From the NCBI GenBank assembly GCA_003024785.1, contig PUQB01000209.1, positions 62,001 to 126,000 of the forward strand: a DNA stretch of 64,000 nt. Direction: 5' to 3'. The number at the start of each line of letters is the position of its first letter. The stretch's first letter is position 1. Below the pieces are notes generated by a model. The model saw only the letters and a program-made list of their open reading frames with translations, was not told the origin of the DNA and ran no database searches. Below, in pieces: positions 24,286-56,660 of the stretch. The position numbers and the translations under genes are program-made. Origin of the DNA: Selaginella tamariscina (taxonomy: Eukaryota; Streptophyta; Lycopodiopsida; Selaginellales; Selaginellaceae).

Positions 24286-24489
24286 TGAAAGAGCACATAT
24301 ATATTCAGAAATGTAAGATGTATTCAACTACAAAAACCCTGCTTATATACAGGAGACCCTCTACCACATGGCACAAATGCGACATGTGGCGCTGACACAT
24401 GGGGCTAGATCACCACCCATGTGTCACTACGCATGTGTGTATATACACATGCGTATATACAGTATGTTATATATATATAGTATCTTACA
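24286..24489 (-). repeat. LTR of element A (3' LTR)
   Basis: About 204 bp, reading TGTAAGATAC to CTCTTTCA on the minus strand. It contains an inverted repeat (arms ACGCATGTGT and ACACATGCGT with a 6-nt spacer, 24429-24454) and a TATATAAG-like box. It corresponds along its whole length to 35185-35385. Confidence 0.88.
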
Positions 24490-27614: not shown

Positions 27615-28787
27615 TTATCTGCACGTCTTAAGGGTAATGAGCACCGATGCGCTAGAGAAGTAGTTATGGAAGACATACTGGATCCTGTATCCACAAACTG
27701 TGACTGAAAGATCATTCACTCGTGCAGAAAATGTGAAAACTGATGATCTGGTGGAACTTGCAAACCTTGATATGCATAGCGGAAAAAAGCATGGAGGTGA
27801 AGTCTCCATCGCACGGGATCCCTCCGTCGCCCGTACGATTACTGGTTTTCCGCAACAGATCCATGCAAGAGAGGCTTCATCATCTGGAAGCTCATCATCA
27901 GACATAATGGCCGCCACAGGCACACCATCCGGAACATATGGTCGCCAGCCTGGATGTGGTGGACGCCAATCAGGATACACATCGCATGCCCGCCAAGTAT
28001 GTCCAGGTGCCCAACAGGCCCAACAATGAACTTGATTGGGTCGACCTGCATTGTTCCGATTCCTCCTGTCACGAATCCGTGGATTTTGACCACCACGGGC
28101 AGGAACTGGAGCAGGTGCAGGACGATTTCGTGGAGGTGGTCCACGGGGTGGGCCCCGAGGTCGACCACGAAAGGCTTGTCGTGCGGGCACATATGCAGCA
28201 GCATCAACCTCCATTGGATCAGCACGCTGAAGAGGAGCAGTAACCCAAGGGGAACACGGCCCTCACCAGGCACCAACTCAAAACGTTGAGCTAGTGCAAA
28301 AGCTTCCTCCAATGTGGTAGGACGAAGAGCCCGAACGAATCGAACAAGTTCGGGTCGCATAGTTGGCCATAACATACCGAGCTTAATGGGCTCAGGCATG
28401 TTAGGATATGCACGCCGAACTAAATCCCCGAACCTAATACTGAACCGCATAACAGACTCACCAGGATGTTGTCGTATCGCATGCAGTTGTTGGAAAGCAT
28501 CATCTGAATCCTCAACTTTGCCAAACGTACGTTTGAGGCATTCCGTTAACCGATTACTATTGGCTTGAATCTCCGCAGCCAATCCATTATACCACTTGAG
28601 CGCAGGGCCTTCCAAACATGTAGGGAATTCTCTGAGAGCACGGGCCTCATCCCAACCATGGTAACGAACAATGACTTGGAAATGATCAAACCAGTGGTAT
28701 ACATCATCTCCCGGATCACCACAAAAAGATCGGGGTCGAACCCTCGGATTTGTGGCCTGTGAAGAAGATGAAGGAGTACTAGAAGCT
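27615..28787 (-). pseudogene. Element A gag, main part
   Basis: A retrotransposon gag capsid domain: RSFCGDPGDDVYHWFDHFQ, LREFPTCLEGPALKWYNGL and HPGESVMRFSIRFGDLVRRA. A CCHC zinc knuckle (CWACWAPGHTWRAC) lies further on in another frame. The first codons of gag lie on the far side of element B, at 35004-35131, beginning MTMNIETAFNII. The two parts adjoin exactly at the GAAGC duplication that marks the B insertion. Confidence 0.85.
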
Positions 28788-29419
28788 GTCAAGCCACGAT
28801 CCAGGAACCGGGAAGAGAGCAGGATTCCAAGAACATGAAGGCTTGACTCAGGAACATGACCGAGAGTAGGACGGAACTAAGAATAGGAACAAGACAGATC
28901 CAGGAGCAAGACAGGATCGAGATAGGATCCGGGAGCAAGACAGGATCCAGGAATAAGACAGAAACAGGACAGGATCCGGGAACAAGATAGGAGCAGGACA
29001 GGATCCGCAGGATAGGAAACAAGAGCGAGACAGGAGCAAGACAGGAAAGAAGACAAGAACAAGACAAGACGAGATTGATCATAGTAAGACTGGTGTTGAT
29101 AGTAACTGATTGTACAACAATTAGGTCGGAGCTTTTATGCTCACAACTCCAAGAGCTAATCTAGGCATGAGTGCTAAAAGTGGTTGCATGCATGCAAAAG
29201 TGACTGCATGCATGCAGAGGCTAAGATGAGTCCATATGTCCCTTATCCTCTAGCATATCCTGTAGGAATATCCTGCAATCATATCCTGTGTCCGGAATCC
29301 TGGTAGGAATATCTTGTAGGAAAGTCCTGCAACCCATATCCTGTATCCAAATCCTGTAGGAAAGTCCTACAACCCATATCCTGTATCCGGAATCCTGTAT
29401 TCTGTATCGGGTCGTGACA
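28788..29419 (-). repeat. LTR of element B (3' LTR)
   Basis: 632 bp. It holds two kinds of short internal repeats: CAGGATAT-like units near 29260-29400 and CAGGATCC/ACAAGACAGGA-like units near 28860-29070. The TATA-like box and the self-complementary site described for element B's other LTR are also present here (GTTGATAGTAACTG at 29094-29107). Confidence 0.92.
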
Positions 29420-29429
29420 GCACCTCCTC

Positions 29430-32400
29430 CTTAAAGACGAGTTCCACAAGTCTTGGGACCTTGGTTTAGTAGGATAATGTCGATGGAAGAAGCATGGAGT
29501 AAGTTGGATGCAGGTTCCCAAGTGCGATCAGTAGATAAATACCCTTTCCAATCCATCAAGTATTGAATGGGTGGCGATGAAGACGAGAATCAAGGATGGC
29601 TACAACTTCGTACTCAGGTTTAGTGTCAATGACCACAGGAGGGGGAAGAGAAGAAACACGACCGGGAAGAGAAGAAGGATGATACAGCTCCAACAAGGAG
29701 GTGTGAAACACAGGATGAAGTTTCATCGTGGATGGTAACTCGAGTCGGAAAACTACAGGATTTACCTTCGCCACGATCCTGTAAGGGCCCAATCGTTGAA
29801 AATCCAACTTAGAAGAAGGCTTGTTGGTGCGAATGTGTCGACGAAGAAGCCACACGAAATCACCAATCTTGTATGCAGGTGCCGGCTGACGGTGAGCATC
29901 AGCATGATGCTTGTATCGTTCCTGTGCTTGCTGAAGATGAACCTGGAGATCATCCTGTACCTGACGAAGATGCTGAAGACGATCCTGTACTGCAGGAGCG
30001 GAAGAAGGAGAAGCGGGAGGAGCAAAGTCAAAACGTGGATGGTGGCTTGTAAGAGCAAAGAAAGGTGTCTGTTCTGTAGATGCGTGAACGGAGTTGTTGT
30101 AGGCAAACTCCGCCATTGGAAGAAGGTCCAACCAGTTGTCCTGTTGGTAACTGATGAAGCAACGAAGATACTGTTCTAAGGTTTGAATTGTGCGTTCGGA
30201 TTGCCCATCGGTTTGTGGGTGATATCTTGAAGAAAGATCCGCTTTAACCTGTAAACTCTGAAGAAGCTCTCGTTAAAACTTGGACATGAATTGTGGACCT
30301 CGATCGGAAACAATGCTCTCAGGAAGACCATGATGTCGGAACACCTCACGGATCACCAACTCGGCAGTTGTCTGACCTGTAGCTGTCTTGTTGCAGGGTA
30401 GGAAATGAGCCTGCTTGGTGAAACGATCAACCACCACAAGAACTGTATCGAATCCACGAGAAGGAGGAAGATCTGTAAGGAAATCCATAGAAATGGATCT
30501 CCAAGGAGCAGAAGGAACAGGAAGAGGACGAAAAAAGACCAGAGGGTGCATGATGAGGCATCTTCGACCTGCTACAAGTGTTGTACAAACCTCTCCACAA
30601 AACCTCGCAACCCAAGCCACCAATAGTTGCGAGTCACCAACTCCACTGTCTTGGCCACACCAAAATGTCCTGTAGTCGGGGTATCCTAACAATCCTTGTA
30701 CCACACGAGTCCTGGAAATACCAACAGGAATGTACAAAAGACCTTCCCGATACAGGAGTCCATCCTGTATGGTGAACAGGTTGTAGTCTGACGGGAACTG
30801 GAGGAAGAGGAACTTGCAACGTCAGGATGAACGTGTAAGAACACATTCTTTGCCAAGTCGTCTGTAGCCAACTGCGAACGACGTCCTGTAGGAGTGTTGA
30901 ATTTGCTGAAGCCTGATGAACCTGCAGTGCCGCAAGCTGGAATCGATCAGGACCCAACAACACTTGCTTTGACAGTCAAATGCAGGATCGCTCGGGCTTT
31001 GTGCAAGGTAAGAGCGCCTAGACAATGCGTCCGCCTTGCCATTCGAAAACTGGGCCTGTAGACGATGACGAAGTCAAAACGTGATAGGAACTCCGCCCAC
31101 CTAGCCTGTCGCCGACTGAGAACTCGAGCCGTTTGAAAGTACTCCAGGTTCTTGTGATCCGTAAGAACTTGTACAGGATGTGCAGCACCCTTCAGGAAAT
31201 GTCGCCACTCCTCAAACGAATCCACAATGGCCTTGAGTTCCTTGTCATGAATCTCGTAATTGATCTCCGCCGACAGGAACTTACGAGAGTGAAAAGCTAC
31301 AGGATGAAGCAACTTGTCTTCTCCAACTTGCGATAGGACAGATCCTACTGCAAAATCCGAGGCATCTGCTTCAATGAAGAAAGGATGAGAAGGGTCAGGA
31401 TGTGCTAAAATCGGAGCTGTCGTGAAGACGTCCTTGAGTGTTGTGAACGCGTGTTCCGCCTTGTCGGACCAAGAGAAAAGCCTGTGCGCTTGGTGAGTTC
31501 TGTGAGTGGAAGTACACGCTTGGAGAAGTCCTGTATGAACCGCCTGTAGAAGTTTGCAAAGCCAAGGAAACATTGTACATCTCGTACCGACTTGGGCCTC
31601 TCCCACTCCACGATGGTCTTCACCTTGTGCATGTCCATGGAAACACCAGTAGGAGAGACAATGTAGCCCAAGAACTCCACCGAATCCCTATCGAAAAAAC
31701 ACTTCTCCAACTTCGCGTACATGCCATGCTCGCGAAGCCGCTCTAGACGAAAGATGTCGTTCACCATGTGTTGGAACACAGCTGGGGCATTGGTAAGGCC
31801 GAAAGGCATTACCGTGTACTCAAAATGTCCATACCTTGTACGAAAGGCAGTCTTCCACTTATCGCCAGGACGAATCCGTACAAGGTTGTAGGCCCTCATA
31901 AGTCGATTTTCGTGAACACTTTTGCTCCTCGCAACCGATCGAGAAGTTCCGAAATCAATAGCAACGGGTACCGATTCCGAATGGTGACTTGATTCAAACC
32001 CCTGTAGTCCACAACCAAACGTAAACTCCCATCCTTCTTCTTGACAAAGAAGATAGGCACTCCTAGGGACTTTGAGTGACGAATGAAGCCGGATGCCAAG
32101 TTGTTCTCGATGTACTGACGAAGAACCTCCAACTCTGTGGGTGACAATGCATAAATCGGTCCGAATGGTGGAGTCTTTCCTTCCGCAAGATCAATAGGAC
32201 AGTTGTAGGACCTGTGAACAGGAAGAACTGCAGCCTTGTGTTTGTCAAAAACGTCCTTAAAGGCGTGATACTTGGATGGTAAGGAAGAAGGAGGAGAAGG
32301 AGAAGGAGTAGGAGAAGGAGATTGAAAAATAGGAGAGTCGGATACAGGAAAGGTAGAAGAGGACGTAGGAGTTACTTGAAAGGCAAAGAGGTGGAAAGGA

Positions 32401-33612
32401 GCAGGATCAATGGCGAGTTTATGCATGGTAGTGGTAAGAACTCGGAGAGGAGAAGGAGGGAGCTGTGACTGAAAAAAGGAAGGATCTTGGGGGGTGAAAC
32501 AGAAGCAGGGTAACAAAAAGAGGCAGGATTGGAAAAAACCTGTGTGGGTGTTGATGAGTGTATAGGATTGGAAGAATCCTGTACAGGAGTCCGTGGTTGC
32601 GCAGGAGTGGGAAAAGCCTGCGAATGTGCTGACGAATCAACAGGAGGTGATCCTGTTGAGAAGGAACCTTCGACACTGATACAGGATTGGAAGAACCCTG
32701 TACAGGACACCGCAAACTTACAGAGTGGAGAGAGCCTGCGGATGTGCTGAGGAACTGACATGAGGTGAATCCTGTCGAGGAGGAGTCTTGAACACTGATA
32801 CAGAACAGGCACGGTCAATCCTGTAGCTTGTACTGCCTCAGATACTAAGGATGTATCCTGCACACAGGAAGATACAGGATTGATCCTAGCTGTCGGAGAG
32901 GAAAACGTGAGCGTCCTAGACCTCCAGTCGATCTGCGGATTTACAACAACGAACCATGGCATGCCCAAAATGATGGGAGTCGACCGAGTCTTGATCAAGT
33001 TGAAGGAAATTGAACAGTTGAATGTGCCATAACTGCAGGAGAGAGGTTCGGTAGCATGGGTAACTGCGCCAGAAGCAATCAGACGCCATCGACCACCTCT
33101 ACAGGAACTGCACGCTTCAACTTCACCATCGAAATGCCATGTTGAGTTGCAAACGTGTCATCCATGAAGCATGCATTTGCACCAGTGTCTAACAAGGCAA
33201 ACTCCATGAGCTCTCGATTATTAAGGTGAATGTGTACAGGAAACTTAAGTGATGGAATGGTATGAGTAGCACCAATGGAGCCTGCACCTACGTCCAACTT
33301 CGCGGCTCCTAGACGAAGTGGACATTGGAGTTTTCCGACTAACTTCAGCTTCAACTTCACGCGTCTTGAAGTTCCTGGCTTTAATAGGACAATCTGCCAC
33401 CTTGTGTCCTGCTCCACCACAATACAAGCACAGGTTCTCACTGCACGACGTTGCTTCTCAACAGCGAAAAGAGGGCCACGCTTGGATTTCTCAACCTCCA
33501 TAGGAACTACTCCAAAGGTGGTGCAGGAACATGTACCACAATTGCAGGATTGGTTTGCAGGAACTGTTGACGGGATCTTTCCTGACGACGCTCGAACAAA
33601 CGGTTGTCGCAA
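29430..33612 (-). pseudogene. Element B pol: protease, RT, RNase H, integrase, chromodomain
   Basis: Reading on the minus strand from 33.6 kb downward. The protease has [15 protein letters not shown] Pro/Ser-rich repetitive linker spans about 32.3-32.9 kb. RT has [31 protein letters not shown], and [16 protein letters not shown]. The block between DIFR and [10 protein letters not shown] lacks the YLDD motif (junction near 31742). RNase H has FFIEADASDFAVGSVLSQ. The integrase has SMDFLTDLPPSRGFDTV and IVSDRGPQFMSKF with YHPQTDGQSER. Near 29.6 kb, EYEVVAILDSRLHR marks the chromodomain, here truncated by a frame change. Confidence 0.88.
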
Positions 33613-33639
33613 TGAACAGCTTGTTGCATGATCTTCGCT

Positions 33640-34280
33640 AATGTTTAGGCATCCGGTAACGTAAGGAGAAGGTCATTCACATCATCCCTCAACCCAAAAC
33701 GGAAGTGTTCAATTAATGCAGTCTCGTCCCATGGAATGTTCATGCAAAGTTGTGAAATTCGAATGCATAGACGGAAGCTGGTCGGGATCCTTAAGTGAGC
33801 TTCCGTAACTTTGTGCATGCAGAACAGTACTTATCAGGATCTCTAAAACAGGCTTCAAAGGCAGCCACAAACCTTCAAAGTCTTCCATTAATGGGTCGTC
33901 ACGCTCCAGCAAGGGAGCAACCCAAGCCCGTGGAGATCCACTTAGTAAGGATGCCAAAAGACCCACCTTTTGAGCATCAGTCGAGTAGCGTTGTGGTTGC
34001 ATACGGATCAAGAGCTGGATCTGATTCAAGAAACCTTGGAAATCAGCACGATTGCTACTGAACTTCTCTGGCATGCTAACCTTTGGCTCCGAAGAAAAGT
34101 TCGATGAAGAGGGAACCACCGATGCCTGGGAGAGAGCCTGCGCAGCAGCCTTGGAGATGCATCAACAGTTGCATGTGCCGCATTGGTGGAACCTTGCAGG
34201 TCGGTGACCACTTGGCGCAAAGTGGCCAGTTCATGAAGTAACATTTGGTGCTCGCGTTGAAAGCGCTCAAAATCAGCCAT
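33640..34280 (-). pseudogene. Element B gag
   Basis: Starts at the ATG at 34280 with [21 protein letters not shown] and continues [21 protein letters not shown], closely resembling element C gag. It breaks into several frames (near 34140 and 33790). The CCHC knuckle MYCGGAGHKVADC is in a different frame at about 33.4 kb. Element C retains the same protein in one frame. Confidence 0.85.
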
Positions 34281-34368
34281 GATCTAGAAAGAAAAAGGAG
34301 GAAAATGAAAAAAGAATCAAGAAAAGGTAGCTGAAAAAACGGAGAATTATGAAGCATTACTATCAAAC

Positions 34369-34998
34369 TGTCAAGCCACGATCCAGGAATCGGGAAGAGA
34401 GCAGGATTTCAAGAACAGGAAGGCTTGACTCAGAAACAGGACCGAGAGTAGGACGGAACTAGGAACAGGAACAGACAGATCCAGGAGCAAGACAGGATCA
34501 GGATAGGATCCAGGAATAAGACAAAACAGGACAGGATCCGGGAGCAAGACAGGAGCAGGACAGGATCCAGGAGCAGGATAGGAAACAAGAGCGAGACAGG
34601 AGCAAGACAGGAAATAAGACAAGAACAAGACAAGACAAAATTGATCGTAGTAAGACTTGGTGTTGATAGTAACTGATTGTACAACAATTAGGTCGGAGCT
34701 TTTATGCTCACAACTCCAAGAACTAATCTAGGCATGAGTGCTAAAAGTGGTTGCATGCATGCAAAAGTGACTGCATGCATGCAGAGGCTAAGATGAGTCC
34801 ACATGTCCCTTATCTCTAGGCATATCCTGTGGCATATCCTATAGAATATCTTACAATCGTATCCTGTGTCCGGAATCCTGGTAGGAATATCCTGTAGGAA
34901 AGTCCTGCAACCCATATCATGTATCCGAAATCCTGTAGGAAACTCCTACAACCCATATCTTGTATCCGGAATTATGTATTCTATATCGAGTCGTGACA
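34369..34998 (-). repeat. LTR of element B (5' LTR, promoter end)
   Basis: 630 bp. In minus orientation it contains GAGCATAAAAGCTC (a TATA-like box inside a short palindrome). About 30 nt further on is CAGTTACTATCAA (34663-34675 on the plus strand), where transcription would be expected to begin. The sequence just inside the LTR, 34357-34366, is complementary to that segment. Confidence 0.92.
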
Positions 34999-35184: not shown

Positions 35185-35385
35185 TGAAAGAGTAGATATA
35201 TATTTAGAAATGTTAGATGTATTTAGCTACAAAAACCTTGCTTATATACATGAGACCCTCTGCTTACGTGGCACATGCGACACATGGCGCTGACACATAG
35301 GGGCCAGATCACCACCATGTGTCACTACGCATGTGTGTATATACACATGCGTATATACAGTATGTTATATATACAGTATCTTACA
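35185..35385 (-). repeat. LTR of element A (5' LTR)
   Basis: 201 bp partner of the LTR at 24286-24489. The same inverted repeat (35327-35352) and TATATAAG-like box are present. In minus orientation gag starts only about 53 nt after the LTR. No standard initiator-methionine tRNA primer site (TGGTATCAGAG) was found there. Confidence 0.86.
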
Positions 35386-49924: not shown

Positions 49925-50477
49925 TGTCACGACTCGATACAGGATACAGGATACGACTTACAGAGATTCAGCCTACAGGATATGCGATACAGGATTCGGC
50001 CCGCAGGATATTCCCACAGGATATGCCACAGGATATTCCCGTAGGATATTCCTCACAGATATTCCCGCAGGATATTCCCGCAGGATATTCCCACAGGATA
50101 TTCCGCAGGATATTCCCGCAGGATATTCCTACAAGATATTCCTATAGGATAAGGATGACCAATTTTGGCTAGTGACTAGATTAGGCTCATGACCAGATTA
50201 GCTTGGAGTTGTGAGCATAAAAGCTCCGACCTAATTGTTGTACAATCAGTTACAATCAACACCAGTCATTCTACGATTATTCTTGTTCCTTGTTCTTGTC
50301 TTGTTCTTGTCTTACTCTTTGCCTCCTGCTCCTGTCTTGCTCCCGGATCCTGTCTTGTTCTTGGATCCGTCCTGTTCTGTTCCTAGTTCCTGTCCTGCTC
50401 TCGGTCCTGTTCCTGAGTCAAGCCTTCCTGTTCTCGGAATCCTACTTGCTTCCTGGTTCCTGGATCGTGGCTTGACA
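49925..50477 (+). repeat. 5' LTR of element C, with tandem array
   Basis: Begins TGTCACGACTCGATAC and ends GGCTTGACA. From about 49990 to 50150 it is an array of short units of the type CAGGATATTCCC(G/A)C, roughly ten copies with small variations. Further on it holds GAGCATAAAAGCTC at 50214-50227 (TATA-like box in a palindrome), then a C/T-rich segment with repeated TCCTGT/CTTGTTC units. Confidence 0.92.
50216..50259 (+). promoter_or_regulatory. Element C core promoter and probable transcript start
   Basis: CATAAAAG at 50216-50223 sits about 29 nt ahead of CAGTTACAATCAA at 50247-50259. The spacing is that of a TATA box to a start site. The same pair is present in the other LTR of C and in both LTRs of B. 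The start site is inferred from spacing only. Confidence 0.55.
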
Positions 50478-50479
50478 GT

Positions 50480-50492
50480 TTGATTGTAACTG
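50480..50492 (+). other. Candidate self-priming site of element C
   Basis: TTGATTGTAACTG starts two bases after the 5' LTR. It is the exact reverse complement of 50247-50259, the presumed 5' end of the transcript. No tRNA-like site beginning TGG is present here. See the finding on self-priming. Confidence 0.6.
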
Positions 50493-50579: not shown

Positions 50580-51557
50580 ATGGCTGATTTTGAGCACTTT
50601 CAACGCGAGCACCAAATGTTGCTTCATGAGCTGGCCACTTTGCGCCAAGTGGTCACCGATCTACAAGGCTCCACCCATGCGGCACATGCAGCTGCTGATG
50701 CATCCTCCAAGGCTGCTGCGCAGGCTCTCTCTCAGGCATCGGTGGTTCCTTCTTCATCGAACTTTTCTCCGGAGCCGAAGATCAGCATGCCAGAGAAGTT
50801 CAGTGGCAACCGTGCCGATTTCCAAGGTTTCCTGAATCAGATCCGGCTCTTGATCCGCATGCAACCACGCCGCTACTCGACGGATGCACAAAAGGTTGGC
50901 CTTTTGGCATCCTTACTAAGTGGATCTCCACGAGCTTGGGTTGCTCCCTTGCTGGAGCGTGACGACCCATTGATGGAAGACTTTGAAGGTTTCGTGGCTG
51001 CCTTTGAAGCCTGCTTTGGAGATCCTGATAAGTACCGTTCTGCATGCACAAAGTTACGGAGGCTCACACAAGGATCCAGACCAGCTTCCGTTTATGCATC
51101 CGAATTCCAGCAATTGTGCACGAACATTCCATGGGACGAGACTGCATTGATCGAACATTTCCGTTTTGGGCTGAAGGACGACGTGAAGGACCTTCTCCTT
51201 ACGTTACCGGATGCCCAAACGTTAGCGGAGATCATGCAACAGGCCGTTCGCTGCGACAACCGTTTGTTCGAGCGCCGTCAGGAAAAATTCCGTCAGCAGT
51301 TCCTGCCAGCCAACCCTGTAGCCGTAGCACATGTTCCTGCGACACCTTCTGGAGCAGTTCCTATGGAGGTTAACAATTCCAAGCGTGGCCCACTTTCAAC
51401 TGCTGAGAAACAACGTCGACGGGGTGAGAACCTATGCTTGTATTGTGGTGCAGCAGGACACAAGGTGGCGGAATGTCCTAATAAAGCCAGGAAGTTCAAG
51501 GCGCGTGAAGCCGAAGCTGAAGTTCAGCCGGAAAACTTCAATGTCCACTTCGTCTAG
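50580..51557 (+). CDS. Element C gag with CCHC zinc knuckle
   Basis: 325 codons in one open frame. The N-terminus [21 protein letters not shown] is helical and likely coiled-coil. The capsid part has [41 protein letters not shown] and [20 protein letters not shown]. The knuckle is [14 protein letters not shown] (C-x2-C-x4-H-x4-C), about 40 residues from the end. Gag stops at 51557, while the protease frame is already open from 51521, so the two frames overlap. Confidence 0.92.
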
Positions 51558-54500
51558 GAGCCGCGAAGTTGGACGTAGGTGCAGGCTCCATTGGTGCTAC
51601 TCATACCATTCCATCACTCAAGTTTCCTGTACACATTCGCCTCAATAATCGAGAGCTCAAGGAGTTTGCCCTGTTAGACACTGGTGCAAATGCATGTTTC
51701 ATGGATGACACTTTTGCAGCTCAGCATGGCATTCCGGTGGTGAAGTTGAAGCATGCAATTCCTGTAGAGGTGGCCGATGGTCGTTTGATTGCTTCTGGCG
51801 CAGTTACCCACGCTACCACACCTCTCTCTTGCAATCATGGTGCATTCAACTGTTCGATTTCCTTCAACCTGATCAAGACTCGGTCGACTCCCATCATTTT
51901 TGGCATGCCATGGTTCGTTGTTGCAAATCCGCAGATCGACTGGAGGTCTAGGACGCTCACGTTTTCCTCTCCAACAGCCAGGATCAACCCTGTACCTTCC
52001 TGCGTGCAGGATACATCCTTGGTGTCTGAGGCAGTACAAGCTACAGGATTGACCGTGCCTGTTCCTGTACCAGTGTTGAAGACTCCTGCTCGACAGGATT
52101 CACCTCATGTCAGTTCCTCAGCACATCCGCAGGCTTTCTCCACTCCTGTAAGTTTGCGGTGTCCTGTACAGGGTTCTTCCAATCCTGTATCAGTGTCGAA
52201 GGTTCCTCCTCAACAGGATCCACCTCCTGTTGATCCATCAGCACATCACAGGCTCTCCTCACTCCTGTGCATCCACGGACTTCTGTACAGGATTCTTCCA
52301 ATCCTGTACACGTCAACATCCACATCTGTTTCTTCCAATCCTGCTTCTTTTCATTACTCTGTTTCTATTCCACCCCCCAAGATCCTTCCTCTTTTTCAAT
52401 CACAGCTCCTTCCTGCTCCTCTCCGAGTTCTTACCACTACCATGCATGAACTTACCACTGATCCTGCTCCTTTCCACCTTTTTGCCTTTCAAGTAACTCC
52501 TACGTCCTCTTCTACCTTTCCTGTGTCTGACTCTCCTGTTTTTCAATCTCCTTCACCTACTCCTTCTCCTTCTCCTCCTTCTTCTCTACCATCCAAGTAC
52601 CACGACTTTAAGGACGTTTTTGACAAGCACAAGGCTACAGTTCTTCCTGTTCACAGGTCCTACGACTGTCCTATTGATCTTGCAGAAGGAAAGACCCCAC
52701 CGTTCGGACCGATTTACGCATTGTCACCCACAGAGTTGGAGGTTCTTCGCCAATACATCGAGGACAACTTGGCATCCGGCTTCATTCGTCACTCAAAGTC
52801 CCCTGCAGGAGCGCCAATCTTCTTTGTCAAGAAGAAGGATGGGAGCTTACGTTTGGTTGTGGACTACAGGGGTTTGAATCAAGCTACCATTCGGAATCGG
52901 TACCCGTTGCCATTGATCCGGAACTTCTCGATCGGCTGCGAGGAGCAAAGGTGTTCACGAAGATCGACTTACGAGGGGCCTACAACCTTGTACGGATTCG
53001 TCCCGGCGATGAGTGGAAGACTGCCTTTCGTACAAGGTATGGACACTTCGAGTACACGGTGATGCCTTTCGGCCTTACCAATGCCCCAGCCGTGTTCCAA
53101 CATATGGTGAACGACATCTTTCGTGACTTCTTGGACCAGTTTGTGGTGATCTACCTTGACGACATTTTGATTTTCTCCAAGGACCAGGCGGCACATGACA
53201 AGCATGTACGGTTGGTTCTACAGCGGCTTCGTGAGCATGGCTTGTATGCGAAGTTGGAGAAGTGTTTTTTCGATAGGGATTCTGTGGAGTTCTTGGGCTA
53301 CATCGTCTCTCCTGCTGGCGTTTCCATGGACATGCACAAGGTGAAGACCATCGTGGAGTGGGAGAGGCCCAAGTCTGTACGAGATGTACAATGTTTCCTT
53401 GGCTTTGCAAACTTCTACAGGCGATTCATACAGGACTTCTCCAAGCGTGTACTTCCACTCACGGAACTCACCAAGCGCACAGAGGTTTTCTCTTGGTCCG
53501 ACAAGGCGGAACATGCATTCACAACACTCAAGGACACCTTCACGACAGCTCCGATTTTAGCACATCCTGATCCTTCTCGTCCTTTCTTCGTTGAAGCAGA
53601 TGCCTCGGATTTTGCAGTAGGATCCGTCCTATCGCAAGTTGGAGAGGACAAGTTGCTTCATCCTGTAGCTTTTCACTCTCGTAAATTCCTGTCGGCGGAG
53701 ATCAATTACGAGATTCATGACAAGGAACTCAAGGCCATTGTGGATTCGTTTGAGGAGTGGCGGCATTTCCTGGAAGGTGCTGCACATCCTGTACAAGTTC
53801 TTACGGATCACAAGAACCTGGAGTACTTTCAACGGCTCGAGTTCTCAGTCGGCGACAGGCTAGGTGGGCGGAGTTCCTATCACGTTTTGACTTCGTCATC
53901 GTCTACAGGCCCGGTTTTCGGAATGGCAAGGCGGACGCATTGTCTAGGCGCTCCTACCTTGCACCAAGCCCGGGCGATCCTGCATTTGACTGTCAAAGGC
54001 AAGTGTTGTTGGGTCCTGATCGATTCCGGCTTGCGGCACTGCAGGTCATCAGGCTCCAGCAAATTCAACTCTCCTACAAGACGTCCGTTCGCAGTTGGCT
54101 ACAGACGACTTGGCAAAGAATGTGTTCTCACACATTCATCCTGACGTTGCAAGTTCCTCTTCCTCCAGTTCCCGTCCAGACTACAACCTGTTCACCATAC
54201 AGGATGGACTCCTGTACCGGGAAGGTCTCCTGTACGTTCCTGTTGGTGTTTGCAGGACTCGTGTGGTACAGGATTGTCATGATACTCCGGCTACAGGACA
54301 TTTTGGTGTGGCCAAGACAGTTGAGTTGGTGACTCGCAACTATTGGTGGCCTGGGTTGCGGGTTTTGTGGAAAGGTTTGTACGGAGTTGTGACACCTGCA
54401 ACAGGTCGAAGATGCCTCGTCATGCACCTTGGTCTTCTTCGTCCTCTTCCTGTTCCTTCTCCTTGGAGATCCATTTCTATGGATTTCCTCACAGATCTTC

Positions 54501-55550
54501 CTCCTTCTCGTGGATTCGATGCAGTTCTTGTGGTGGTTGACCGTTTCACCAAGCAGGCTCATTTCCTACCCTGCAACAAGACAGCTACAGGTCAGACAAC
54601 TGCCGAGTTGGTGATCCGTGAGGTGTTCCGACATCATGGTCTTCCTGAGAGCATTGTTTCCGATCGAGGTCCACAATTCATGTCCAAGTTTTGGCGAGAG
54701 CTTCTTCGGAGTCTACAGGTTAAAGCGGATCTTTCTTCAGGATATCACCCGCAAACTGATGGACAGTCAGAACGCACAATCCAGACCTTGGAGCAATATC
54801 TTCGTTGCTTCATCAGTTACCAACAGGATAATTGGTTGGACCTTCTTCCTATGGCGGAGTTTGCCTACAACAACTCCATTCACGCATCTACAGGCCAGAC
54901 ACCTTTCTTTGCTCTTACAGGCACCATCCACGTTTTGACTTTGCTCTTCCTGCTTCTCCTTCTTCCGCTCCTGCAGTACAGGATCGTCTTCAGCATCTTC
55001 GGCAGGTACAGGATGATCTCCAGGTTCACCTTCAGCAGGCACAGGAACGGTACAAGCATCATGCTGATGCTCACCGTCAACCGCACCTGCATACAAGATT
55101 GGTGATCTCGTGTGGCTTCTTCGTCGACACATTCGCACCAACAGGCCTTCTTCTAAGTTGGATTTTCAACGATTGGGCCCTTACAGGATCGTGGCGGAGG
55201 TAAATCCTGTAGCTTTCCGACTCGAGTTACCACCTACGGTGAAACTTCATCCTGTGTTTCACACCTCCTTGTTGGAGCCGTATCATCCTTCTTCTCTTCC
55301 TGGTCGTGCTTCTTCTCCTCCCCCTCCTGTGGTCATTGCTGGTGAACCTGAGTACGAAGTTGCAGCCATCCTTGATTCTCGTCTTCATCGTCGTCAACTT
55401 CAATACTTGGTGGATTGGAAAGGTTATTTGCCTACCGATCGCACTTGGGAACCTGCATCCAACTTACTCCATGCTTCTTCCAAAGTTGCTGCTTTCCATC
55501 GGCGTTATCCTGCTAAACCAGGTCCCAAGACTCGTGGAACTCGTCCTTAG
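51521..55550 (+). pseudogene. Element C pol: protease, RT, RNase H, integrase, chromodomain
   Basis: Protease: [17 protein letters not shown] (51.67 kb). A Pro/Ser-rich linker with imperfect tandem repeats occupies about 52.0-52.6 kb. [22 protein letters not shown], then a one-base offset near 52918, then [33 protein letters not shown] and the catalytic YLDD at 53152-53163. RNase H: FFVEADASDFAVGSVLSQ and YEIHDKELKAIVDSF. The frame changes near 53830 and again near 54100. Integrase: HHCC with [23 protein letters not shown] with SMDFLTDLPPSRGFDAVLVV, IVSDRGPQFMSKFWREL and SSGYHPQTDGQSERTIQTL. The frame changes again near 54925 and near 55100. As written it is not one continuous product. Confidence 0.9.
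55350..55514 (+). other. Chromodomain at the C-terminus of element C pol
   Basis: EYEVAAILDSRLHRRQLQYL followed by VDWKGYLPTDRTWEPASNL has the aromatic cage pattern (Tyr, Trp and Trp-Glu-Pro) of a chromodomain. It defines the element as a chromovirus. Chromodomains bind methylated histone H3 and steer integration to heterochromatin. The residues of the cage are all present. Confidence 0.88.
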
Positions 55551-55561
55551 GGAGGAGGTGC

Positions 55562-56072
55562 TGTCACGACCCGATACAGGATACAGGATACGACATACAG
55601 GATTCAGCCTACAGGATATGCGATACAGGATTTCGGCCCGCAGGATATTCCCACAGGATATGCCACAGGATATTCCCGCAGGATATTCTCACAGGATATT
55701 CCCGCAGGATATTCCCGAGGATATTCCTACAGGATATTCCTATAGGATAAGGATGACCAATTTTGGCTAGTGACTAGATTAGGCTCATGACCAGATTAGC
55801 TTGGAGTTGTGAGCATAAAAGCTCCGACCTAATTGTTGTACAATCAGTTACAATCAACACCAGTCATTCTACGATTATTCTTGTTCCTTGTTCTTCTTGT
55901 TCTTGTCTTACTCTTTGCCTCCTGCTCCTGTCTTGCTCCCGGATCCTGTCTTGTTCTTGGATCCGTCCTGTTCCTGTTCTAGTTCCTGTCCTGCTCTCGG
56001 TCTGTTCCTGAGTCAAGCCTTCCTGTTCTCGGAATCCTACTTGCTTCCTGGTTCCTGGATCGTGGCTTGACA
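55562..56072 (+). repeat. 3' LTR of element C
   Basis: Begins TGTCACGACCCGATAC and ends GGCTTGACA. It is about 40 bp shorter than its partner because it has fewer CAGGATATTCC units (55640-55740) and small changes in the C/T-rich part. Confidence 0.92.
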
Positions 56073-56660
56073 ACACGGAGATCCACGTCTGCTATTTATT
56101 CTTTCTCCAAGGTGCACTTGTGAGCTGGAGCAGCAAGCGGCAAGCAACAATTGCTCTCTCTCTTCAACTGAAGCAGAATATATTGCTGCTACTGCAGCAG
56201 AATATATTGCTGCTACTGCAGCAGCAAAGGAAGCAATTTGGATTGGAGAGTTTCTGAGAGAGATCTGTATTCCGGCTCAGCGACCCGTGACTCTTTTCTG
56301 TGACAACAAAGGAGCAAGAACTATCAAGAATCCAAAGTTCCACGGGAGGACAAAACATTTTGAGATTAAAGTGCATTTCATCAGAGAGCAAGTGCTAGCA
56401 GACAGAGTTCTTCTCAAGTATGTCCCAACTCAAGAGATGACTGCAGATGTGATGACCAAGGCTCTAGCAAGAGAAGAAGTTTGTGCAGCATCGTGAGGAG
56501 ATGGGAGTTCTCGACTCTTACGGCTGAGTGGGAGTGTGAGGAGCCAGCCTGGAGTCAAGGACAGGTGGCGACAGACGTGTACGCAATGTGATGATACATG
56601 TGCACTGAGCGTTACGGCGTTCCAATACTTTGTACATATATATTGAGAAAAATCAATATA
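56073..56660 (+). pseudogene. Ty1/copia RNase H remnant, with possible LTR start
   Basis: Encodes the C-terminal end of a copia polyprotein: LSSTEAEYIAA-type signature, KEAIWIGEFLREICIPAQ, LFCDNKGARTIKNPKFHGRT, KHFEIKVHFIREQV and YVPTQEMTADVMTKAL. Two or three indels break the first part. A 24-bp unit is duplicated in tandem at 56173-56220. From about 56528 a TG-starting segment (TGTGAGGAGCCAGCC) may be the LTR. The upstream RNase H sequence and all other copia domains are missing; element C abuts directly. Confidence 0.88.

Follow-up and report, generated by a model that had tools for sequence, protein, structure and literature searches.

Results

Structure of element C and its candidate primer

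The locus analyzed here raises the question of how an LTR retrotransposon of a land plant starts reverse transcription when no tRNA-type site follows its 5' LTR. A preliminary description of a 64-kb stretch of Selaginella tamariscina DNA (the whole of which is called the window below) had singled out one such element, element C, and had suggested Tf1-like priming from its own RNA. Our analysis indicates that element C is very probably a Tf1/sushi-type (plant Tcn1-like) LTR retrotransposon that self-primes from the 5' end of its RNA. Its features, all on the forward strand, are as follows.

49925..50477, +, 5' LTR, TG...CA, starting TGTCACGA and ending TTGACA
50216..50223, +, TATA-like box CATAAAAG in the 5' LTR
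50247..50259, +, proposed self-primer CAGTTACAATCAA, putative transcript 5' end (start at C50247 or A50248), exact reverse complement of the primer-binding site
50265..50278, +, 5' strand of a second helix (RNA duplex prediction): GTCA, 2-nt internal loop, CTACGATT
50463..50476, +, 3' strand of the second helix (RNA duplex prediction), at the 5' LTR end: GATCGTGG, loop, TGAC
50478..50479, +, 2-base spacer GT, separating the LTR from the primer-binding site
50480..50492, +, putative primer-binding site (PBS) TTGATTGTAACTG, 2 bases past the 5' LTR
50580..51557, +, gag, 325 aa, open, beginning ATGG (open reading frame and domain match, Retrotrans_gag)
51569..53062, +, open frame with aspartyl protease (domain match) and, by eye, the start of the reverse transcriptase (RT)
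52951..54144, +, open frame with RT and RNase H, in a different frame (domain match)
54095..55105, +, open frame with integrase zinc-binding and core domains (domain match)
55110..55550, +, open frame with Tf2-1-like SH3 domain and chromodomain (domain match)
55549..55558, +, purine tract AGGGAGGAGG preceding the 3' LTR
55562..56072, +, 3' LTR, with the same primer segment at 55845-55857

The domains above the cut-off (Retrotrans_gag, RVP_2, RVT_1, RT_RNaseH, rve, SH3_Tf2-1 and Chromo) form a Ty3/gypsy gene set with the chromodomain after the integrase, and the frames are broken between domains. By eye, the chromodomain (EYEVA...VDWKGY) keeps Y, W and Y at presumed cage positions, which we take, from HP1, to be those of the aromatic cage. 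The two LTRs were identical in 498 of 509 aligned columns, plus 45 gap columns, in an alignment whose 3' LTR slice started one base late. No 5-bp target-site duplication was found at the flanks (GTCTT and ACACG), and the ends of the element may be the product of a rearrangement. By eye, the right flank (56073-56400) resembles a copia RNase H fragment, whereas the left flank does not. In the U3 regions, a 13-base unit (CCCACAGGATATT type) is repeated in tandem at 49945-50151 and 55573-55749, with about 11.8 copies in the 5' LTR versus 8.8 in the 3' LTR.

The exact complementarity that had been described for the bases after the 5' LTR was borne out: the 13 nt at 50480-50492 (+) match, as reverse complement, both 50247-50259 of the 5' LTR and 55845-55857 of the 3' LTR, and these were the only three exact matches of the PBS sequence within the window. 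The spacing of about 29 nt from the TATA-like box also held, as our scan placed ATAAA 30 nt before the primer, and from this spacing the transcript would start at about 50247/50248. As had been stated, no TGG was present from 50478 up to the gag ATGG at 50580; furthermore, no tRNA genes were found in the window. In 3000 shuffles of the 20 nt past the LTR, no match to the LTR exceeded 11 nt (11 nt three times, 10 nt three times), against the 13 nt observed. In its available text, Neumann et al. 2019 (PMC6317226) predicts self-priming from a stretch of 10 bp or more that is complementary to the LTR and starts 0-5 bp after it; element C has 13 bp at +2 and no tRNA site, as judged by TGG.

Other copies in the same genome

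The window contains a further copy, element B, on the reverse strand.

28787..34998, -, element B, LTRs at 34998-34369 and 29419-28787, target-site duplication GCTTC
34663..34675, -, primer segment of element B CAGTTACTATCAA, A to T relative to element C, in both LTRs
34355..34366, -, PBS of element B TTGATAGTAATG, T to A relative to element C, one base missing

The A-to-T difference in the LTR of element B is thus matched by a T-to-A difference in its PBS. Copy D (L061 and L062, assumed to be one element across an unread intervening kilobase) has the LTR type of element B and the PBS TTGATATAACTG, again with one base missing; these missing single bases in B and D may be assembly errors. Copy E (L068), which is of the same LTR T, PBS A type, pairs over 13 of 13 positions. 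Two further stretches (L069 and L074) are LTR pieces without a PBS, and the primer segment of L069 differs. Among the host-genome stretches that were read blind, L056-L060, L063-L067, L070-L073, L075-L081 and L083-L090 gave no match to the element, and L082 gave one weak RT match. A search for the R-U5-PBS stretch returned 4502 first-look candidates in the host genome, 40 of which (element C included) were scored and showed 98-100% identity; the family has therefore probably been active recently.

Element B adjoins or sits within the gag frame of another gypsy element (27839-28792, -), whose LTR pieces may be the repeat pair 24286-24489 and 35185-35385. The window also encodes a cyclophilin, for which the top identity among 120 matches listed was 85% with Selaginella moellendorffii, followed among the named matches listed by Ceratopteris and Sphagnum (82%).

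Co-change of primer and binding site

We then counted the LTR...PBS pattern in the host genome (300.7 Mb, 1391 contigs) as TTACNATCAACA, 195-225 bases and TTGACAGTTTGATNGTAA, a definition that misses other spacings such as that of element B. The pattern occurred in 114 copies, and its reversed control in none. At the variable base (LTR/PBS), 64 copies were T/A, none was T/T and 11 were A/A, the remaining 39 being left unsplit; the A/A copies (11 of 114) have one mismatched pair. Among 37 copies with LTR letters shown, 15 were of the A type, of which three were A/A and 12 were not. Fisher's test gave p = 8e-9 with the A/T set at 12 or 7e-21 with it at 39, values that are not true probabilities, as the copies share descent and are not independent events. 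The pattern is one-sided: an A in the LTR occurs with an A in the PBS, and a T in the LTR was not seen with a T in the PBS among the 114 copies. Complementarity was kept in other copies while the sequence changed, as it was in the close relatives described below, with some exceptions: the single mismatch in the 11 A/A copies, the missing base in B and D, and one decayed relative (L007).

The PBS seems to follow the LTR, which is the outcome to expect of a primer that serves as template for the PBS. With T/A taken as the older state, the absence of T/T together with the presence of A/A implies that the LTR changes first and the PBS afterwards. Such an order is expected if an LTR-encoded primer is copied into the new PBS; selection for pairing could be another source of it. 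According to its title, a 2006 paper by Atwood-Moore et al. reportedly found that the Tf1 primer is not removed. We consider the chances about even that the host genome holds a record of self-primed replication, in which mutation of the LTR primer comes first and the copied primer then overwrites the PBS, so that T/A, A/A and A/T copies arise but T/T copies do not. If this is true, copy counts alone could reveal how a retrotransposon family is primed, and Tf1/sushi self-priming would extend to ferns.

Relatives in other genome records

An RT alignment scan of bacterial and archaeal genome records yielded 28 loci, whose host assemblies we read as bacterial records with contaminating eukaryote DNA. 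A gag match was present in 14 of these loci and absent from the 14 others. Seven loci contained a primer/PBS pair of 11-12 nt, exact in each case: CAGTCTCGACAA in L002, ACTCTTGATCAA in L003, AAGGCGAACAA in L005, L006, L017 and L026, and AAGGTGAACAA in L009. All seven had a TATA 29-33 nt upstream, an LTR end in ...ACA, a 2-nt spacer (GT, GC or GA) and a PBS starting TTG. Six different primers occur among the nine elements compared, and in every element the primer pairs with the element's own site over 10-13 nt; in a tenth, the decayed L007, 7 nt of pairing are left. With L007 left out, cross-type comparisons of primer and PBS gave runs of 4-8 and one of 10 (R region of L009 versus PBS of C); the PBS of L007 had a run of 10 with the L009 primer.

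L008, L012, L014 and L016 lie at contig ends, and their pre-gag stretch is missing. In the distant relatives L010 and L018, whose LTR ends were not located, no pair of at least 10 nt was found in the pre-gag stretch scanned. A scan of L001-L029 for pairs with a TATA and an LTR-like end recovered the same seven loci, plus L007, L008, L025 and L027 without LTR context. The pair scan alone is not specific, because it also listed simple-repeat and AT-rich pairs in the window. One exact-pattern match in a viral contig (L001) was rejected for want of LTR-like surroundings. The RT alignment of viral contigs gave three pattern stretches and no relative, and the genome contigs searched with the LTR/PBS pattern gave no match.

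Several relatives (L003-L009, L017, L026 and L028) belong to one record labelled uncultured Trichormus sp. As Trichormus azollae is a symbiont of the fern Azolla (PMC12376041, available text), these contigs are probably Azolla DNA. A gag of Ceratopteris was also related to that of element C (51% over 73% of the query). Such elements were thought more likely to be lacking in ferns in the accessible part of Novikova et al. (PMC2864245); on the sequences compared here, however, fern relatives of element C are probable.

A second copy of the PBS sequence was observed in U3, just upstream of the proposed transcript start, where it forms an inverted repeat with the primer (L005:65-92, L006:19-46, L017:2718-2745 and L026:1568-1595; L009 and L002 by eye). 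The copy in L009 has the same base change as the L009 primer.

With regard to placement, the named RT relatives among 120 listed of 7719 came from frogs, catfish, skate, Rhizopus, Absidia and Endocarpon, in a listing where most had no names and full-length pol proteins fell outside the length limits. We take these organisms to be hosts of Tf1/sushi-type elements, which fits what is available of PMC6317226 and PMC10085805. In an RT tree of 42 rows, which held no labelled seed-plant chromovirus, lost P0008, element B and L025-L028 to short matches and did not include L029, element C grouped with copy D, L003, L008, P0002 and P0003 (86/77). This group was nested within a fork of 27 rows (95/88), where the vertebrate group, Absidia, L002 and L004-L009 were also placed.

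Predicted structure of the leader RNA

When the leader, from the primer to 25 nt past the PBS, was folded with no shuffled control, every primer-PBS pair was recovered in all nine elements, with a mean probability of 0.92-0.96. Duplex prediction suggested a second helix between a segment five or six bases past the primer and the last LTR bases. This helix was better than shuffles in seven of nine elements (at most 0.04 of shuffles as good); in element C it reached -16.4 kcal/mol, with 0.002 of shuffles as good. It was weak in L026 (0.09) and absent in L002 (0.84 of shuffles as good). Own partners averaged -12.8 versus -8.0 kcal/mol for swapped ones, and in three of the nine (L002, L005 and L017) the post-primer segment scored better with the LTR end of some other element than with its own. 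A third duplex of the Tf1 type was not found, the prediction falling below 0.05 in only one of nine elements; thus, the three-duplex leader of Tf1 was not recovered in element C and its relatives.

Discussion

Complementarity that is kept while the letters change, together with the lack of TGG, argues for the earlier reading of Tf1-like self-priming in a land plant. In the proposed mechanism, the transcript would start at about 50247/50248, and the first 11-13 nt of the RNA would fold back onto the PBS two bases past the LTR. RNase H would then, as the analogy with Tf1 suggests, cut the RNA after ...CAA, and the freed RNA 3' end would prime minus-strand DNA. The second helix, formed by the post-primer bases and the LTR end, may help to present the primer duplex. 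The retained primer would finally be copied into plus-strand DNA, because of which a change in the LTR primer would be carried into the PBS in a later cycle.

Some other explanations have to be weighed against self-priming. The two arms might be a structural leader hairpin, serving as a packaging, translation or cleavage signal under selection and having no part in priming. Compensatory change is expected of any selected helix, the leader folds strongly, and selection alone could make one arm change first. However, one arm is located 2 nt from the LTR end, where the minus strand has to start, and the second arm coincides with the expected start of the transcript, both in element C and in seven relatives; moreover, no other primer site was seen. 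We consider such a hairpin highly improbable. Alternatively, a tRNA, whole or cut in its anticodon stem, could prime element C, and the complementarity would be incidental. Sites of the tRNA type are found in most plant LTR elements, and half-tRNA primers in some plant copia lineages, according to the available text of PMC6317226. Nevertheless, there is no TGG near 50478, the variable PBS base follows the LTR, and the six PBS types each match their own LTR, so that no single tRNA explains them; priming by tRNA appears highly improbable. As for chance complementarity, three of the 3000 shuffles did give 11-nt matches, but none reached 12 nt, and exact pairs are present in the relatives too, where the letters differ. 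Chance is already refuted by the relatives, and its probability is negligible.

Element C, which we read as self-priming, can be compared with several known systems. In Tf1 of Schizosaccharomyces pombe, Tj1 and Tosmo (PMC4600332 and PMC10085805, available text), a primer at the RNA 5' end likewise pairs with a site after the LTR. Tf1 also has a second duplex, between PBS-adjacent sequence and LTR sequence downstream of the primer (PMC10085805, in the part available), resembling the predicted second helix. On the other hand, the third duplex of Tf1 was not detected in element C or its relatives, and self-priming of Tf1 has been shown by experiment (PMC4600332 and PMC10085805, as far as available), whereas that of element C is a prediction from sequence. 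Self-priming has also been predicted, in the available text of PMC6317226, for TAR-lineage Ty1/copia elements of plants (Houba and Osr-1). These elements belong to another superfamily than element C. To our knowledge, they are without a chromodomain.

Closer likeness is found among plant chromoviruses. Elements of the plant Tcn1 clade, as described in the available text of PMC6317226, share with element C the Ty3/gypsy organization, a chromodomain, the lack of a tRNA site and an LTR-complementary stretch. SM-Tcn1 of Selaginella moellendorffii has a gag of 323 aa (PMC2864245, available part), versus 325 aa in element C. In the accessible portion of Novikova et al. 2010 (PMC2864245), no tRNA site and no sign of self-priming were found in SM-Tcn1, whereas the signal in element C is plain, a comparison made by description only. 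The doubt in the preliminary description, that self-priming was not established for the relatives of this element, is outdated: in Neumann et al. 2019 (PMC6317226), as far as its text was available, 12% of the plant elements analysed were predicted to self-prime, among them most elements of the Tcn1 clade (from mosses and club-mosses) and the TAR lineage of copia. Since self-priming in plants had already been proposed there, element C is a further case. The present data add directional co-change at the level of single copies, as well as probable relatives in ferns; in the open-licence literature, we found no paper that used copy-level co-change as evidence of self-priming. The one-sided pattern agrees with a primer that is copied into the PBS, which opens the mechanism to testing in a land plant, and the same test, which needs nothing but genome sequence, is applicable to further families. 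Whereas plant chromovirus self-priming rests on per-element prediction in the available text of PMC6317226, both sites change together here across copies and relatives.
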